Assembly: GCF_030692605.1 (NCBI RefSeq)
Contig: NZ_JAUYUD010000114.1
Location: 1 to 64,000 of the forward strand
Direction: 5' to 3'
Length of the DNA: 64,000 nucleotides
Origin: Lutibacter sp.
GTDB taxonomy: Bacteria > Bacteroidota > Bacteroidia > Flavobacteriales > Flavobacteriaceae
The notes beneath the pieces are model-generated. The model was not told the origin of the DNA and made no database searches. It saw only the letters and a list, made by a program, of their open reading frames with translations. Below, piece after piece: positions 57,000 to 63,970 of this stretch (positions within the stretch are counted from its first letter, which is position 1; every line of letters begins with the position of its first letter). A program made the position numbers and the translations under genes.

Positions 57000-59126
57000 A
57001 TGCAATTAATAAACTACATACAATCCAACACGAATCTTCCTTCAAACGGAATTCAAAATACAGTTGAACTTTTAAATGAAGATTGTACTATTCCTTTCAT
57101 TTCCAGGTACAGAAAAGAAAGAACCGGAAATTTAGATGAAGTTCAAATTGGCGAAATTGTTAAGTTTAAAGCGCTGTTTGAAGAAATTGAAAAACGAAAA
57201 TCAACTATTTTTAAAGCGTTAGAAGAGCAAGAAGTATTAACTAGTGAACTTCAGCAAAAAATTGAAAAATGTTTCGATTTAACCGAATTAGAAGATTTAT
57301 ACCTTCCTTATAAAAAGAAAAGAAATACAAAGGCTGAAATTGCTCGTAAAAATGGTTTAGAACCTTTGGCTAAAATTATGATGAGCCAAAATGCAATGGA
57401 TATTCAATCTATTGCCTCAAAGTATTTAACTAATGATGTTAAAACAGAAGATGATGCATTGGAAGGAGCTCGATTTATTATTGCTGAATGGATTAACGAG
57501 CGAACCGACATAAGAAACAATATTCGTTATCAATTAGTTAAATTTTCTTCTATTAGCACAAAGGTTATTAAAACAAAAGAAGATGATGAAAAAGCGCAAA
57601 AATATAAAGATTATTTTGAGTGGAACGAGCCACTAATGAGATGTCCTTCACATAGGCTGTTAGCTATTTTAAGAGCCGAAAAAGAAGGTTTTATTCGTAT
57701 TAAGATTGAAATTGATGATGAAAAAGCAATTTTAAAAATAGACGACCGCTTAATTACTTCAGCTAACGATTGTTCCAAACAGATTAAATTGGCTATTCAA
57801 GATTCGTATAAAAGATTATTGTTTCCTGCACTTTCCAATGAGATTTTAAACAACGCTAAGGAACTTGCAGATAATGAAGCGATAAAGGTATTTGCTAAAA
57901 ATTTAAAACAGTTATTATTAGGCGCTCCTTTGGGTGAAAAAAATATTTTAGCCATAGATCCAGGATTTAGAAGTGGTTGTAAAATTGTTTGTTTGAATGC
58001 TCAAGGCGGATTAGAATATAACGAAACTATTTATCCGCATGCACCAAAAAACGATGCTATTGGAGCGATGAAAAAAATAAATAGTTTGGTTGATGCTTAT
58101 AAAATTGAAGCCATTGCCATTGGAAATGGAACAGCATCGAGAGAAACCGAGCATTTAATAAAAAAAATGCGCTTTAATAAAGATGTTCAGGTTTTTGTGG
58201 TAAGTGAAGCTGGAGCAAGTATTTATTCAGCATCGAAAATTGCTAGAGATGAATTTCCAAATTTTGATGTTACTGTTAGAGGTTCGGTGTCTATTGGTAG
58301 AAGATTAGCTGATCCGTTGGCAGAATTGGTAAAAATTGATGCTAAATCTATAGGTGTGGGTCAATATCAGCACGATGTAGATCAAAATAAGTTAAAAACG
58401 TCTTTAGATACCGTTGTTGAAAGTTGTGTTAATACAGTTGGTGTAAATATAAATACAGCGAGTATTTCACTGCTAAGTTATGTTTCTGGAATTGGTCCTA
58501 AATTGGCAGAGAATATTGTGAAGTATAGAGGAGAAAACGGTTCATTTTCTAGTAGAATTGACATAAATAAAGTTCCACGTTTAGGCGATAAAGCTTTTGA
58601 GCAAGGCGCAGGATTTTTAAGAATAAAAAATGCTAAAAATCCTTTAGACGATTCTGCGGTGCATCCTGAAAGTTATGCAATAGTAACGAGAATCTCAAAA
58701 GACCAAAAATGTAAAGTTGGAGATTTGATTGGAAACAAATCTGTTTTAACGCAACTAGACTTGCTGAAGTATTGTACTTCTACAATTGGATTACCTACGT
58801 TACAAGACATTGTGAAGGAATTGGAGAAACCAGGTTTAGATCCAAGGCAAACAGCAAAAGTTTTTACCTTCAATCAGAATATTAGAACCATAAACGATGT
58901 GAAAGAAGGAATGTTGCTACCTGGAATTGTAAACAATATTACCAATTTTGGTTGCTTTGTAGATATTGGAATTAAAGAAAGTGGCTTGGTGCATGTTTCC
59001 AATTTATCTAGTACTTTTGTGAGTGATGTAAGTTCTATTGTGGCGCTTCATCAGCAAGTTATAGTTAAGGTATTGGAAGTTGATGTAGCAAGAAAACGGA
59101 TTCAGTTAAGTATGAATTACAAGTAA
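57000..59126 (+). CDS. tex: Tex-family RNA-binding transcription accessory protein
   Basis: S1-domain nucleic-acid-binding protein. Domain order: N-terminal helical Tex domain with FISRYRKERTGNLDEVQI, a YqgF/RNase H-like domain (ILAIDPGFRSGCKIVCL), HhH motifs (LLSYVSGIGPKLAENIVKYRGENG) and a C-terminal S1 domain (LLPGIVNNITNFGCFVDIGI). 708 residues is normal. It follows metG after 84 bp containing repetitive CAGT/ACTG short motifs. Confidence 0.95.
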   Translation: MQLINYIQSNTNLPSNGIQNTVELLNEDCTIPFISRYRKERTGNLDEVQIGEIVKFKALFEEIEKRKSTIFKALEEQEVLTSELQQKIEKCFDLTELEDLYLPYKKKRNTKAEIARKNGLEPLAKIMMSQNAMDIQSIASKYLTNDVKTEDDALEGARFIIAEWINERTDIRNNIRYQLVKFSSISTKVIKTKEDDEKAQKYKDYFEWNEPLMRCPSHRLLAILRAEKEGFIRIKIEIDDEKAILKIDDRLITSANDCSKQIKLAIQDSYKRLLFPALSNEILNNAKELADNEAIKVFAKNLKQLLLGAPLGEKNILAIDPGFRSGCKIVCLNAQGGLEYNETIYPHAPKNDAIGAMKKINSLVDAYKIEAIAIGNGTASRETEHLIKKMRFNKDVQVFVVSEAGASIYSASKIARDEFPNFDVTVRGSVSIGRRLADPLAELVKIDAKSIGVGQYQHDVDQNKLKTSLDTVVESCVNTVGVNINTASISLLSYVSGIGPKLAENIVKYRGENGSFSSRIDINKVPRLGDKAFEQGAGFLRIKNAKNPLDDSAVHPESYAIVTRISKDQKCKVGDLIGNKSVLTQLDLLKYCTSTIGLPTLQDIVKELEKPGLDPRQTAKVFTFNQNIRTINDVKEGMLLPGIVNNITNFGCFVDIGIKESGLVHVSNLSSTFVSDVSSIVALHQQVIVKVLEVDVARKRIQLSMNYK

Positions 59127-59141
59127 TTATTTATGATATTG

Positions 59142-59187
59142 GTGATTATATTCATTAGAAACACGTATATTTGGTGAATATAATCAC
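59142..59187 (+). promoter_or_regulatory. Perfect dyad operator overlapping the ATPase promoter
   Basis: GTGATTATATTCA (59142-59154) and TGAATATAATCAC (59175-59187) are perfect 13-bp inverted arms separated by 20 bp. A TATATTTG -7 box (59166-59173) lies between them. The ATG of the DUF4143 ATPase is 6 bp after the right arm. This geometry suggests a repressor site blocking the promoter, or a leader hairpin covering the start region. Confidence 0.65.
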
Positions 59188-59193
59188 TAAATT

Positions 59194-60309
59194 ATGATTT
59201 ATAGAAGCATAACCGAGAATATTATTTCTAAAATTGGAAAGGGAAAGGCAATTATTTTAATTGGTCCAAGGCAAGTTGGAAAAACCACCTTGTTAAACGC
59301 TGTTTTAAAAGATAAAAATTTTCTTTTTTTAGACGGTGATGATCCAACAGTTAGAAATTTACTCACAAATCCAAATACCGAAACGTTAAAAAGTATTATG
59401 GGTACCCATCAATTTGTATTTATTGATGAAGCCCAACGAATTGAGAATATAGGGTTAACACTTAAAATAGTAACGGATCAATTTAAACAAATTCAGCTTT
59501 TTGTTAGCGGATCATCTGCTTTTGATATAAATAATAGAATTAGAGAGTCTTTAACCGGCAGAAAATGGGAATTTAATTTGTTTCCTATTACTTGGAAAGA
59601 GTTTGAAAGTTATTTTGGATTTTTAAGGTCGGAGCAGCAATTAGAACTGAGGTTGCTATACGGTATGTATCCTGATGTAGTTGTTAACACTGGTGAGGAA
59701 TTTGAAATACTTAAAAATTTAGTTAACAGTTACTTATATAAAGATGTATTGGCATATGCAGGAATACGAAAACCTGAAATTTTAGAAAAATTGCTTCAAG
59801 CACTCGCATTACAAATGGGAAGTGAGGTAAGTTATAATGAACTTTCAAAATTATTAAGAATAGATAAAAACACGGTAAGTAGTTATATTGATATTTTAGA
59901 ACAATCATTTGTTATTTTTAAACTTCCGAGTTTTAGTAAAAACATAAGGAATGAAATTAAAATGAACAAGAAAATCTATTTTTATGATAACGGAATTCGG
60001 AACATGATTATTGGAAACTTTAACGCACTAGACATAAGAACTGACAAAGGAGCATTATGGGAAAATTTTTTAATTAGCGAACGGTTTAAAATAAATAGTT
60101 ATAATAATGTTGGTGTAAAATCGTTTTTCTGGAGAACAACTCAACAACAAGAAATAGATTATGTAGAAACAATTGCTGATGAAATTAATGCGTATGAATT
60201 TAAATGGTCATCTTCAAAAAAAGTTAAGCTACCGAAACCTTTTAAAGAGAATTATAAGGGAAGTTTTAATTTAATCACAAAATCTAATTTTAGGGATTTT
60301 ATTAGCTAA
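59194..60309 (+). CDS. AAA ATPase with C-terminal DUF4143 domain
   Basis: An ATP-binding protein of the AAA_14/DUF4143 type. Walker A GPRQVGKTTLL (about residues 24-34), Walker B FVFIDEAQRI, sensor FVSGSSAF, a winged-helix segment (MGSEVSYNELSKLLRIDKNTVSSYIDIL) and the DUF4143 nuclease-like tail (IYFYDNGIRNMIIGNF, ENFLISERFK, EIDYVE). These are widespread, highly mobile-looking genes of unknown role, often near defence or toxin-antitoxin genes; here it directly borders the Pycsar/HigBA block. 371 residues is typical. Its stop codon abuts the 60308 inverted repeat. Confidence 0.88.
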   Translation: MIYRSITENIISKIGKGKAIILIGPRQVGKTTLLNAVLKDKNFLFLDGDDPTVRNLLTNPNTETLKSIMGTHQFVFIDEAQRIENIGLTLKIVTDQFKQIQLFVSGSSAFDINNRIRESLTGRKWEFNLFPITWKEFESYFGFLRSEQQLELRLLYGMYPDVVVNTGEEFEILKNLVNSYLYKDVLAYAGIRKPEILEKLLQALALQMGSEVSYNELSKLLRIDKNTVSSYIDILEQSFVIFKLPSFSKNIRNEIKMNKKIYFYDNGIRNMIIGNFNALDIRTDKGALWENFLISERFKINSYNNVGVKSFFWRTTQQQEIDYVETIADEINAYEFKWSSSKKVKLPKPFKENYKGSFNLITKSNFRDFIS

Positions 60310-60329
60310 TTAACGTGAGTTCAATATAA
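60308..60329 (+). repeat. Left arm of a 22-bp inverted repeat enclosing the defence block
   Basis: AATTAACGTGAGTTCAATATAA matches the reverse complement of 62991-63012 at 20 of 22 positions. It begins within the ATPase stop codon. Confidence 0.75.
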
Positions 60330-60378
60330 GTAAGAATAATACTATCTGAATATTGGTTATTTGTGTTATTTTGAAGGA

Positions 60379-60646
60379 GGACAACTGTGGCAAACTGTTT
60401 ATGGATAGTCAGATTGCCATATTTTACTTTAAAAAAGTAAAATTCGCAATGATGACAAGGTCATGGGTTTATTTTTCAATGGTTCCTTTGTCATACCGAG
60501 TAGTCGAGGCATCTTACGACGAGTTTTTATAAGATTTGTGCGACTGGAAAATCGGAGATTTTTCGGACGAAGCAAATCGTTTGTTGAATGTTTGTCAGTT
60601 CGTTATTTAGTTTAAATGTAAGCATAAATTTTATGAGGTGTTGTAG
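60379..60646. repeat. Repeat R1 (attC-like), left of the Pycsar module
   Basis: About 268 bp, no ORF. From CGCAAT (60445) to TTGTA (60645) it aligns with R2 at roughly four fifths identity (shared: CATACCGAGTAG, TTATAAGATTTGTGCGACTGG, GTAAGCATAAATTTTATGAGG). Its left 60 bp diverge but keep GACAAC...CAAAC at the equivalent place. It also holds a hairpin at 60421-60443 (ATTTTACTTT/AAAGTAAAAT) that could end the ATPase transcript. The right end GAGGTGTTGTAGCC is complementary to the left end of R2. Confidence 0.75.
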
Positions 60647-60652
60647 CCAGTT

Positions 60653-61381
60653 TTATTTGCAATTTTTATCAATCCAATCATTCATTCCTGTATTGATGAT
60701 ATTTCCGTGATAGCAAGAACGATTCGAATTCCATTCTAATAAACCTTTATTATGGTCATTTAGATTACATTGAAAGTCAGACGAAACCATAACCTCTCTA
60801 TCATTCCAAGTTTTATTGCCGTAACCACATAGATTAGAACTCTCATTTACTACTTCTCCCATCCAAACGACATCATTTAATCCACTTCCATTATAACCTG
60901 CTTTAATCATTAATACTCTACCAAATGCAAGACCAATCCCAATTTCTAATGGGTCAATTCCTTTTTTCTTGTATTTACAATTTAAAGTGTCAATAACGGA
61001 AGAAACTTCTGCCGCTGTAGAAAAAACAGAATCTAGTTGTGGTTTATATTGGGCGTCAAATACTCCCCAAACACAATCACCATTTATATTAATTTCTGAA
61101 CACCAATTATTCCCATTAATAACAGCAACTACCTCTGAAATATAAGATCTATATATTCTTGCTAAAACTGGTCTTTGATATTTAGAAGGTAATTTTGAAG
61201 ATTCTCTGATATCAACAAATAAAGCTGAAGTCTTATTAACATAAAAACCATTATTGAAGGTCAATTTATCTCTTGAAGGTATTTTATCAACTTCTTCAAA
61301 AGATTTGTCTTCAGTTTTTAGAATGTTATCAATTCTTTCACGACTTTTTTCAAAATCATAGTTTATAAAATTACTCTTCAT
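60653..61381 (-). CDS. pycC: Pycsar pyrimidine cyclase (class III nucleotidyl cyclase)
   Basis: Predicted to make a cyclic pyrimidine nucleotide (cCMP or cUMP) on phage infection and so activate the neighbouring membrane effector. The class III cyclase core is visible: metal-binding Asp57 in ALFVDIRESSKLP and Asp102 in ININGDCVWGVFDA, then GIGLAFGRVLMIKAGYNG and WMGEVVNESSNLCGYGN. FVDIRxS with a downstream GD and the small single-domain size (242 residues) are the PycC pattern rather than a multidomain adenylate cyclase. The start at 61381 is preferred over the track's 61423 because it forms a TAATG junction with the effector stop. Which pyrimidine is used cannot be told. Its stop lies 7 bp from R1. 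Confidence 0.85.
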   Translation of the reverse strand: MKSNFINYDFEKSRERIDNILKTEDKSFEEVDKIPSRDKLTFNNGFYVNKTSALFVDIRESSKLPSKYQRPVLARIYRSYISEVVAVINGNNWCSEININGDCVWGVFDAQYKPQLDSVFSTAAEVSSVIDTLNCKYKKKGIDPLEIGIGLAFGRVLMIKAGYNGSGLNDVVWMGEVVNESSNLCGYGNKTWNDREVMVSSDFQCNLNDHNKGLLEWNSNRSCYHGNIINTGMNDWIDKNCK

Positions 61382-61884
61382 TAGAAAGACGCTAAATAGA
61401 TTAGTATTGAAAAAATTAAACAAATTAAGACTCCAAAGAAAAATCTAATACTCCAAGTGACATTTGAAAATTTTTTCCAAGCAATACTTGAATTGGTATG
61501 AATTTGTTCAGTTAATTCTTTTAAGTAACTTTCATCACTTGATAATATATTTGAAGAATGGATTGAATATTCATCCGAGTTTTTAAATTTTTCTTTAATA
61601 TGACCAAAATAAATTATTGAGTTTGGATTTTCATTTTTTAATCTAGGGTTTATACATAAAAAAGAAAAAATTATAGAAATGAGGCTAAATATCATACTTA
61701 TAATTGAAAAACCTAATATCCAATTTGATTTGTTTAATCCAATTAATACATCAGTCGAGTTTGAATATATAATTGTAATTAATACTCCGTATAGTGTCAG
61801 AAGTATAGTCGCTTTGGTATCTGAATATTTTATCCAGTCATTTATATTACCAAGGATGTTCCAATATTCTTGAGTTTTATTCAT
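61381..61884 (-). CDS. pycTM: Pycsar transmembrane effector (PycTM)
   Basis: Predicted membrane effector that binds the cyclic pyrimidine and disrupts the inner membrane, killing the infected cell. 167 residues. The hallmark N-terminal IKYSDTKATILLTLYGVLI (first TM helix, about 18-42) is the Pycsar-effector signature. A second TM helix is at about 50-75 (WILGFSIISMIFSLISIIFSFLC), then a soluble part, and a third TM near the C-terminus (about 146-166). First gene of a two-gene transcript, overlapping the cyclase start by one base. Identification is by motif plus gene pairing. Confidence 0.87.
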   Translation of the reverse strand: MNKTQEYWNILGNINDWIKYSDTKATILLTLYGVLITIIYSNSTDVLIGLNKSNWILGFSIISMIFSLISIIFSFLCINPRLKNENPNSIIYFGHIKEKFKNSDEYSIHSSNILSSDESYLKELTEQIHTNSSIAWKKFSNVTWSIRFFFGVLICLIFSILIYLASF

Positions 61885-61908
61885 AGTTCGATTTTTTTTT
61901 CAAATTGG

Positions 61909-62169
61909 CTACAACAGTTGATAAACGTAATGTGATTCCTCCTTTGGTCGGAATGACACTATTTTCAAACTCTCGCAATAATGATAGGGTCATGAGTTTA
62001 TTTTTCAAAGATTACTTTATCATACCGAGTAGTTGAGGCATGTTACGGGATTTTATAAGATTTGTGCGACTGGATAACCGGAGATTTTTCGGTTGAGGCA
62101 AATCGTTTGTTGAATGTTTGTTGGTTTCTGCTAGTTCAAATGTAAGCATAAATTTTATGAGGTGTTGTA
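61909..62169. repeat. Repeat R2 (attC-like), between Pycsar and HigBA modules
   Basis: About 261 bp without an ORF. Its ends are inverted: TACAACA-GTTG-ATAAA at 61910 and TTTAT-GAGG-TGTTGTA ending 62169, i.e. two complementary box pairs with equal short spacers. The left quarter matches R3 almost exactly (ACAACAGTTGATAAAC.TAATGTGATTCCTCC) and the right three quarters match R1. The flanking bases differ per module: GGC-TACAAC on the Pycsar side and GTTGTA-ACACGTAC on the HigA side. Confidence 0.78.
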
Positions 62170-62182
62170 ACACGTACTTTTC

Positions 62183-62473
62183 TCAGACTTCAATTGAAAT
62201 CTTTACTTTTCCGCCAAGCCCTTTTTCAACAATGTCGTAAAGTGTTTTTAAAGTCAGATTACTTCCATTATTCTCAACGCGAGAAATATAAGTCCTTTTT
62301 TTGTCTACTAAATCGCCAAGTTGCTCTTGAGTCAGATTTTTTTCTTCTCTTGCTTTTCGTAATAAAAGCCCGATTTTAAATGATTCAAAGTCTCTATCAA
62401 GTTCATCTCTGCGTTCAGTTCCTTTTTTTCCGTAAACGGAATCTTTAATATTTTTCCAACTTTTAGTTTCCAT
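62183..62473 (-). CDS. higA: HigA-like antitoxin (XRE-family HTH)
   Basis: Antitoxin and autorepressor. The C-terminal half is an XRE helix-turn-helix (LLRKAREEKNLTQEQLGDLVDKKRTYISRVENNG). The start METKSWKNIKDSVYGKKG at 62473 lies one base after the toxin stop and is preferred; the track start at 62494 would add seven residues and overlap the toxin by 20 bp. 96 residues. The toxin-first order is the HigBA arrangement. Its stop is 14 bp from R2. Confidence 0.9.
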   Translation of the reverse strand: METKSWKNIKDSVYGKKGTERRDELDRDFESFKIGLLLRKAREEKNLTQEQLGDLVDKKRTYISRVENNGSNLTLKTLYDIVEKGLGGKVKISIEV

Positions 62474-62474
62474 T

Positions 62475-62819
62475 TTATTTGTTTTTGTCTTCATAATACG
62501 AGTTCATTAAAATAATGGCTTTGTCAATTTCTTTTTTCGGAGTTTTTTGTGACTTTTTTGTAAATCCGTTCAACAAGATTACAAGTTTTCCTTTGTCAAA
62601 GAAGCAGAACACTCGCCAAATATTCGAACCTAATTTGATTCTTGCTTCGTAAAGTCCTTTTGTTCCTGTAATTAGTTTGAGATACGTCGAAGGAACTCTT
62701 TCGTACGTTTCTATTATTTCAATTACTTTGTATATTTTGTCTTGAACCTTAATAGGTTGCGCAAGTAAGAAATCTTCAAAATGATTCTTGTAAGCGATTA
62801 CTTCTCTGACTTTTTTCAT
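62475..62819 (-). CDS. higB: HigB/RelE-superfamily toxin
   Basis: Predicted ribosome-dependent mRNA interferase or related toxin. 114 residues with the RelE-fold pattern in LYEARIKLGSNIWRVFCFFDKGKLVILLNGFTKKSQKTP (conserved Arg, Phe and the Gly-Phe-x-Lys-Lys-x-x-x-Thr-Pro loop). It is upstream of higA, with the promoter immediately before its ATG. The start codon lies only about 5 bp after the -7 box, so the mRNA may be leaderless. Confidence 0.9.
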   Translation of the reverse strand: MKKVREVIAYKNHFEDFLLAQPIKVQDKIYKVIEIIETYERVPSTYLKLITGTKGLYEARIKLGSNIWRVFCFFDKGKLVILLNGFTKKSQKTPKKEIDKAIILMNSYYEDKNK

Positions 62820-62824
62820 TCGGA

Positions 62825-62855
62825 CAAAGGTAACTTAAAAGTTACAATTTTCAAA
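62825..62855 (-). promoter_or_regulatory. Consensus promoter with embedded palindromic operator for higBA
   Basis: On the minus strand TTTG (62855-62852), exactly 19 bp, then TACCTTTG (62832-62825) matches the Bacteroidota consensus perfectly. The perfect palindrome GTAACTTAAAAGTTAC (62830-62845) overlaps the spacer and -7 box and is the natural site for HigA repression. Confidence 0.75.
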
Positions 62856-62899
62856 ATTATAATTTATTTTTCTGAAGCACAATTTTTTTTTCGTATGTG

Positions 62900-62968
62900 T
62901 TACAACAGTTGATAAACATAATGTGATTCCTCCTTTGGTCGGAATGACACTATTTTTAAACTCCTATT
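62900..62968. repeat. Repeat R3 (partial copy), right of the HigBA module
   Basis: TACAACAGTTGATAAACATAATGTGATTCC through GGAATGACACTATTT matches the left 60 bp of R2 with only a few differences, then homology stops near 62968. It keeps one box pair (TACAAC, ATAAAC) but the complementary end is missing, so this copy is truncated or rearranged. The preceding GTATGTGT is complementary to ACACGTAC after R2, up to one base. Confidence 0.72.
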
Positions 62969-62990
62969 TATTGGTGGTGTGCGATTATTG

Positions 62991-63012
62991 TTATATCGAA
63001 CTTACGTTAATT
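62991..63012 (-). repeat. Right arm of the 22-bp inverted repeat enclosing the defence block
   Basis: TTATATCGAACTTACGTTAATT is the reverse complement of 60308-60329 except at two positions. The remaining sequence to 63136 shows no gene. Confidence 0.75.
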
Positions 63013-63136
63013 ATTTAAAGTGGAATACAAGAAAACGGATTTAGTTAAGTATGTCCTATTATTAAGGAGATTTATGTTTCATTAATGTAGTTTTATGAGC
63101 ACTCTTTTTTTAAACATACAACCTTTATTAAATATA

Positions 63137-63166
63137 AAAGGGACTTCAAATTAATGAAGTCCCTTT
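63137..63166 (-). terminator. Terminator of the outer-membrane beta-barrel gene
   Basis: AAAGGGACTTCA and TGAAGTCCCTTT form a perfect 12-bp stem with a 6-base loop, about 22 bp beyond the gene's stop on the minus strand. Confidence 0.82.
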
Positions 63167-63187
63167 AATCTTTCTTATAATAACAAG

Positions 63188-63970
63188 CTAAAATTTAAAC
63201 CCTAATTTAAAAGAAAATTGAGCAAAGAAAGAAACAGTATCAGTTTCAGATTCCAAGTTAAATTGACCTGGACCTGGAGTTTTTACACTTCCAGCATAGG
63301 TATAAGAAACTGGTTTAACATCAAAACCAAAGTATACATCTTTAGCTAAGTAATAGTCAACACCAGCAACTGCTTGTACACCAAATGCGGTAATATCTAC
63401 GTGACGTGCACCTAGATCGTTTAGTTGATCAAATTGAGAATGTCTAGCATAATCAAAAGGGATTGCAAAACCTAAGTATGGAAATAATCGCTCGTTTTTA
63501 GTATTAAAAAGCCATTGACCTCCAATAGATACATTTAAATCAATCGTTTCATTCGCAACAACTGCTTGATAAGCTGGTAATGGACCAGCAGCAGGTATAC
63601 CTAACACATAAGGAGTATTGCGTAAAATTGCTCCTCCACTAAGTGTTATTGCAAATCTATTGCTAGCATAATACCTTCCTTCTGCACCAACCATATTAGT
63701 AACGCTATTATCATTAGCGCTAACATCATTAGCAAAAGGAGCAGCACCAGACACAGTTGAATTAGAACTTGGTACAACTAAACCACCATTTAAATATGCT
63801 CCACGTCCAAAAACCATTGCTGCTGTGAAATCACCTTTTTGAGGTGCAAATTTATTTGTTGTATCGCAACAAGCATTAGTACATTCGTGTGTGGCATCAT
63901 CTTTATGCTGAGCATTTGCACTAAAAAGTGTAAAGACTAAGATAAAGCTTAATATTAAATAATTTTTCAT
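63188..63970 (-). CDS. Outer-membrane beta-barrel protein of unknown function
   Basis: A 260-residue exported protein with signal peptide (LILSFILVFTLFSANAQ), a Cys/His-rich mature N-terminus (HECTNACCDTTNKF), alternating beta strands such as GRYYASNRFAITLSGGA and a terminal aromatic (FSFKLGFKF), the usual OmpA/OmpW-like barrel signature. Ligand and role unknown; the Cys/His patch could bind a metal. Single gene followed by a strong terminator; its promoter is largely beyond the window edge. Confidence 0.82.
   Translation of the reverse strand: MKNYLILSFILVFTLFSANAQHKDDATHECTNACCDTTNKFAPQKGDFTAAMVFGRGAYLNGGLVVPSSNSTVSGAAPFANDVSANDNSVTNMVGAEGRYYASNRFAITLSGGAILRNTPYVLGIPAAGPLPAYQAVVANETIDLNVSIGGQWLFNTKNERLFPYLGFAIPFDYARHSQFDQLNDLGARHVDITAFGVQAVAGVDYYLAKDVYFGFDVKPVSYTYAGSVKTPGPGQFNLESETDTVSFFAQFSFKLGFKF

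Follow-up and report, generated by a model that had tools for sequence, protein, structure and literature searches.

What is a perfect inverted repeat doing around the promoter of an ATPase gene? In the window (the whole stretch of Lutibacter sp. DNA that we analysed, 64,000 nucleotides long), a perfect 13-bp dyad spans positions 59142–59187, with no strand of its own. Arm 1, GTGATTATATTCA, lies at 59142–59154, and its exact reverse complement follows at 59175–59187 after a 20-nt spacer. Between the arms sits the -7 box TATATTTG (59166–59173, forward strand), which fits the Bacteroidota pattern TAnnTTTG, and only 6 bp separate the end of arm 2 from the ATG (59194) of a gene for an AAA_14-DUF4143 ATPase. 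A preliminary description, made from the sequence alone, had reported the dyad around the -7 box, ending 6 bp before the ATG, and this part held fully. It overlooked that the arms are near-palindromes themselves, which makes the dyad a pair of 16-mer direct repeats with a period of 32 bp, or three helical turns. We refer to these repeats as predicted operator sites, for which there are no binding data: site 1 (GGTGATTATATTCATT, 59141–59156, forward strand) is a near-palindrome of the form GGTGA-N6-TCA, and site 2 (GGTGAATATAATCACT, 59173–59188, forward strand) lies 32 bp 3' of it. The resulting array straddles the -7 box, whose final G is also the first G of site 2, a one-base overlap.

Taken alone, the dyad is only moderately unusual. 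In 20 dinucleotide shuffles of the window, perfect 13-bp dyads with spacers of up to 40 nt occurred with a mean of 0.1. The sole other perfect dyad of at least 13 bp in the window (AAACCTGATAATCAT...) is found at 2672–2701, between prs and the gene that follows it. The exact dyad occurs a single time in the genome, as does the exact 14-mer core of site 2, and the dyad was absent from all 119 relatives searched. On its own this absence would look like a refutation; we rejected that reading, since the sites diverge along with the protein.

The preliminary description had proposed a check, namely whether the dyad stands upstream of close homologues. It does, with the same geometry but in family-specific letters. 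Arrays upstream of homologues (for example GGGATTGTATTCCC, TTGGTGAATACAATCACC, AGGATTCAAATCCG, GGTCATTATAATGACC and many more) usually comprise 2–4 sites with a period of 32–33 bp and extend into the -7 box, at times as far as the start codon. TAnnTTTG itself is present within the last 75 nt upstream of 77% of 113 DUF4143 genes. When direct repeats matching at 14/18 or better are counted in these 113 upstream regions, the lag spectrum shows a sharp peak at 32 bp (47%) and 33 bp (11.5%), with all other lags near background. The same criterion gives 3.2% and 1.4% at these two lags for control genes and 0.5% and 0.7% for shuffles, and some of the scoring controls are further AAA_14-DUF4143 genes with arrays of their own. 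Distant DUF4143 members with unrelated sequences, taken from ten genomes, show 31–33 bp repeats in 17 of 53 cases (0.55 expected) and strong dyads in 35 of 53. A 31–33-bp repeat, a strong dyad or both are present at 84 of the 113 related and 44 of the 53 distant genes, against 4.9% of 244 controls. Both gene sets include related sequences, hence these fractions are not independent counts. No clear array was found by the criteria used in 29/113 related and 9/53 distant upstream regions, in part since the caller misses single sites that are degenerate. In other phyla, Treponema has a 32-bp period, Sulfitobacter has four copies at 23 bp, and the regions upstream of Thermus and Agrobacterium DUF4143 genes carry weaker 22-bp repeats; two haloarchaeal plasmid relatives that we examined had no array.

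A few loci are worth describing in their own right. At many of them the spacer between sites holds a near-palindrome of its own, AAAAGTTATAACTTTT, which includes a -7-like box and recurs across subfamilies. At five loci (L103, L115, L121, L124 and L125) the ATG falls inside the last repeat (GGTGATT-ATG-AT). If this can be inferred from sequence alone, the transcripts of these genes may be leaderless and the start codon may be part of the operator. At one locus (L015) the gene has arrays of the same kind on both sides, the upstream one and another (TTTGCGGATACAATCGC) directly 3' of it.

The sites are also largely private to their genes. Genomes whose DUF4143 gene carries the GTGAATRYAATCAC core have 1–2 copies of it, at that gene. 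We considered and rejected the idea of a regulon, since genomes contain about one copy of the core; lone extra copies without an adjoining DUF4143 gene were seen in five relatives. Paralogues within one genome mostly have different sites. Cross-matching between paralogues is noisy at 14/16 in AT-rich DNA (30 of 269 pairs), and at 15/16 only one pair remains. A Chitinophaga MAG (G515) has 23 DUF4143 matches in a 3.2-Mb genome, with differing upstream repeats.

The gene behind the array at hand (59194–60309, forward strand) encodes 371 amino acids. Its product matches DUF4143 (3.9e-41) and AAA_14 (3.8e-29) above the Pfam cut-offs, and residues 1–370 match the PADLOC profile PDLC04789 (E 4.9e-164) for PDC-S01, a candidate single-gene defence protein. 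In an AlphaFold2 model (mean pLDDT 90.4, pTM 0.90) residues 194–246 form a winged helix-turn-helix (59773–59931, forward strand), with helices at 214–221 and 225–237 followed by strands at 241–246 and 259–263. Residues 224–226 are thereby predicted to lie where the recognition helix begins, a stretch that reads D224-K225-N226-T227-V228-S229-S230-Y231 (59863–59886, forward strand). Conservation in 65 sequences further points to a PD-(D/E)XK-type motif, D322 ... E335-x-K337 (60157–60204, forward strand): G24, G29, K30, D78, E79 and D322 are invariant, and E335 and K337 nearly so. The conserved Walker and PD-(D/E)XK residues match the architecture described for PDC-S01, from which nuclease and ATPase activity are inferred. 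The closest solved folds found by Foldseek are the archaeal AAA ATPases 2fna and 2qen, followed by RuvB, Orc1/Cdc6 and Apaf-1.

If the protein reads its own array, then the residues of the recognition helix should change together with the bases of the half-site, and they do. A first labelling of half-sites was contaminated by the spacer palindrome described above, and a fixed core was therefore used to call the sites again, by an automatic procedure that took no account of the protein. Mutual information was then computed against all 371 protein columns. The top column is residue 225 for base 2, residue 226 for base 3 and residue 224 for base 4; for residue 226 and base 3 the z score is 16.5, more than twice that of the next column. 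A comparison restricted to close pairs leaves residues 226 and 224 at the head of the ranking for bases 3 and 4, respectively, whereas base 2 no longer has residue 225 as its best column. In all usable sequences (49/49), G stands at base 3 if residue 226 is Lys and only then; with the winged helix left out of the tree, both the base and the residue change at least five times. The pairs of helix and operator include DKNT with GGTGA, DKKT with GGGGA, NKIT with GGTCAT, NKNT with GGTTAT, DRAT with AGATT, DSKT with TTGGA and SKNT with GTCA. Near-neighbours show the same switches: one gene (L106) with NKNT has GGTTAT where its NKIT relatives have GGTCAT, and another (L076) with DKKT has AGGGA among DKNT relatives with GGTGA.

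Simple rules, fixed beforehand, were also tested on an additional 69 genes, taken from other genomes. Lys226 predicted G3 in 13 of 13 cases, Asn226 predicted T3 in 15 of 15 and Asp224 predicted G4 in 27 of 29. With the weaker rules included, the automated totals were 31/39 and 27/32. Two rules gave no correct prediction in these held-out genes, that for Val226 (0/4) and that for Asn224 (0/3); by eye the failures could be mis-called sites, although this was judged after the fact. Since recognition-helix residues covary with operator bases, the protein itself is the probable binder. That the ATPase recognises its own promoter array is thus strongly supported and very likely, on computational grounds and without binding data.

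Our preferred answer to the opening question is autorepression, with the ATPase/nuclease bound to the array at its own promoter; we assign this a probability of about 0.8. Computation has shown that the array exists and is conserved together with the gene, and that residues and bases covary, with out-of-sample prediction. Repression is inferred from the position of the array, without data, for any family member, on binding of the array or on expression. Under our model the DUF4143 winged helix would read the GGTGA half-sites via residues 224–226. With the two near-palindromes exactly three helical turns apart, protomers bound to them would share one face of the DNA, span the -7 box and the presumed start site, and keep RNA polymerase off. 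Site 2 overlaps the -7 box, with the likely start site inside, so bound protein should block the polymerase; it is from this that we infer autorepression. The three-turn spacing, with both sites on one face, suggests that the sites may be filled cooperatively, perhaps governed by nucleotide state. The result would be negative autoregulation of a potentially costly ATPase/nuclease, and infection or DNA stress may relieve the repression. The position of the array alone cannot exclude activation. Among 142 neighbour proteins at DUF4143 loci we found no recurring family except other DUF4143 genes, which leaves no candidate for a separate regulator gene. In Thermus, the transcript of the DUF4143 gene TT_P0211 rose 6.6-fold with a plasmid plus Argonaute (PMC4406477). 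DUF4143 genes can hence be induced, but this does not test the autorepression model. The preliminary description had suggested both a winged helix and autorepression: the winged helix is confidently modelled, and the covariation of the recognition helix backs self-binding, while repression is still only inferred.

A link to defence or stress had been suggested as well, and it is supported solely as candidate status, by the PADLOC assignment to PDC-S01 and the adjoining Pycsar and toxin-antitoxin pairs; phage defence has not been shown. In many congeners tex is followed by an outer-membrane protein gene, equivalent to positions 63188–63970 of the window. In the window about 4 kb (59127–63180) lie between these two genes. 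This segment holds the ATPase gene with its array, a Pycsar pair (PycC-like cyclase and PycTM-like effector, 60653–61884, reverse strand) and a Gp49/HTH_3 (HigBA-like) toxin-antitoxin pair (62183–62819, reverse strand). One could regard the variable segment as a potential insertion spot for defence genes. A direct repeat of about 180 bp (60446–60626 and 61973–62147, 84% identical) brackets the Pycsar pair; part of it recurs behind tex in one congener (L313), and it might be a dispersed repeat.

Gene loss can leave the array behind, as at a Flavobacterium locus without the gene (L139) compared with L051 and L065. In another genome (G028) a broken gene stands behind its own array. We rejected the solo array at L139 as evidence for a mobile element and consider it a deletion relic instead. 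Two further loci (L141 and L142) have arrays of 2–3 sites without a nearby DUF4143 gene and are conceivably relics of the same kind.

Could the array do something other than repress? One could argue that it is mainly a functional site of the nuclease/ATPase, a parking or licensing platform on which the enzyme stays inactive until infection, with self-repression as a by-product. This would account for a dedicated, fast-evolving self-site that is mostly paralogue-specific, and for phased arrays of 2–4 sites; the fold also resembles Orc1/Cdc6, RuvB and STAND ATPases, which assemble on DNA or as signal platforms. However, the sites lie on the core promoter and not at arbitrary nearby spots, for which a repressor is the simpler explanation, and arrays outlive gene loss and are hence harmless without the gene. 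We consider the platform unlikely. An RNA hairpin is less likely still. It would mask the start codon in transcripts that read through from tex; those begun at the start site of the gene itself would lack the 5' arm and be translated. The RNA 59120–59200 indeed folds at -25.7 kcal/mol (z -6.2) with the AUG paired. Among 76 homologues, however, only 25% have z < -4, and z < -2 together with a paired AUG is seen in 39%; arrays far upstream of the ATG could not act in this way, and RNA structure would not predict covariation with the recognition helix. A search of Rfam with 58900–59500 gave no match to a known structured RNA. A hairpin is thus possible at the window gene but not general, and as an explanation of the arrays it is very improbable.

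The same low standing applies to the suggestion of an element that the ATPase gene carries, mobile or replicating, with the repeats as its ends or iterons. In its favour, gene and array were gained together, in the segment of about 4 kb between genes that are adjacent in congeners, and proteins with AAA and winged-helix domains include replication initiators. Against it, a matching downstream repeat is missing at nearly all loci (L015 is the exception), no precise excision was seen, and the gene-less Flavobacterium site keeps the array plus a piece of the 3' end of the gene, which is a plain ragged deletion. Finally, a host regulator of the CRP/FNR type might bind GTGA-N6-TCAC, a core that equals the CRP core consensus. 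This can be all but excluded: the letters of the site change with the helix residues of the ATPase, the sites differ between paralogues of one genome, and the core is found about once per genome and not as a fixed site at many promoters. We therefore rejected a CRP/FNR regulon, the site following the DUF4143 helix instead.

Self-repression by the ATPase/nuclease remains our preferred reading, and a bolder version of it can be entertained as a possibility. PDC-S01 ATPase/nucleases may be a large set of mutually insulated, self-recognising modules, each with its private operator and a simple three-residue code. The promoter-bound ATPase would then be the resting form of a defence enzyme, the occupancy of the array would report the state of the DNA or of infection, and one protein would be sensor, repressor and effector. 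Paralogues, of which there are up to 23 per genome, would stay separate because their codes diverge.

What does this mean for the family? PDC-S01, an ATPase plus PD-(D/E)XK, has been called the fourth most common prokaryotic defence system, and most such defence candidates still await validation (PMC12988326). PDC-S01 is itself without a validated function or known DNA target, and the array is the family's first predicted DNA ligand. The dyad is one case of a widespread rule, in which the paired sites of DUF4143 genes change in step with the helix that reads the DNA. The code from residue to base will allow our model to be tested by a single swap, N226K together with T3 to G3. A readout from the self-operator could reveal inducing conditions, and assays of PDC-S01 without the native promoter may miss regulation.

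How does such a module compare with known systems? By profile the window protein is a member of PDC-S01 (AAA_14-DUF4143), which it resembles in being an ATPase plus PD-(D/E)XK. In the literature we searched, which left most subscription journals out of scope, DUF4143 was named in one paper, and no operator, self-regulation or DNA specificity was reported for PDC-S01. SSO1545 (2fna), PABY2304 (2qen) and Orc1/Cdc6 share the AAA domain plus winged helix at 12–15% identity to the window protein, but Orc1/Cdc6 is known for binding origins and not a private promoter array. RptR is alike in the direct repeats at the promoter and in being a repressor that silences defence genes. RptR is, however, a small regulator in its own right, with TAGCTA as its conserved site; at DUF4143 loci there is no separate regulator gene, and the site diverges along with the enzyme. 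Autorepressing antitoxins and the control proteins of restriction-modification systems bind operators over their own promoters. In contrast to these, the predicted binder here is the ATPase/nuclease itself, in a module of a single gene. Self-binding regulators are already known; what sets the present case apart, within the literature that we searched, is that a defence candidate of one gene, an ATPase/nuclease, is predicted to bind an operator that is private to it and diverges fast.
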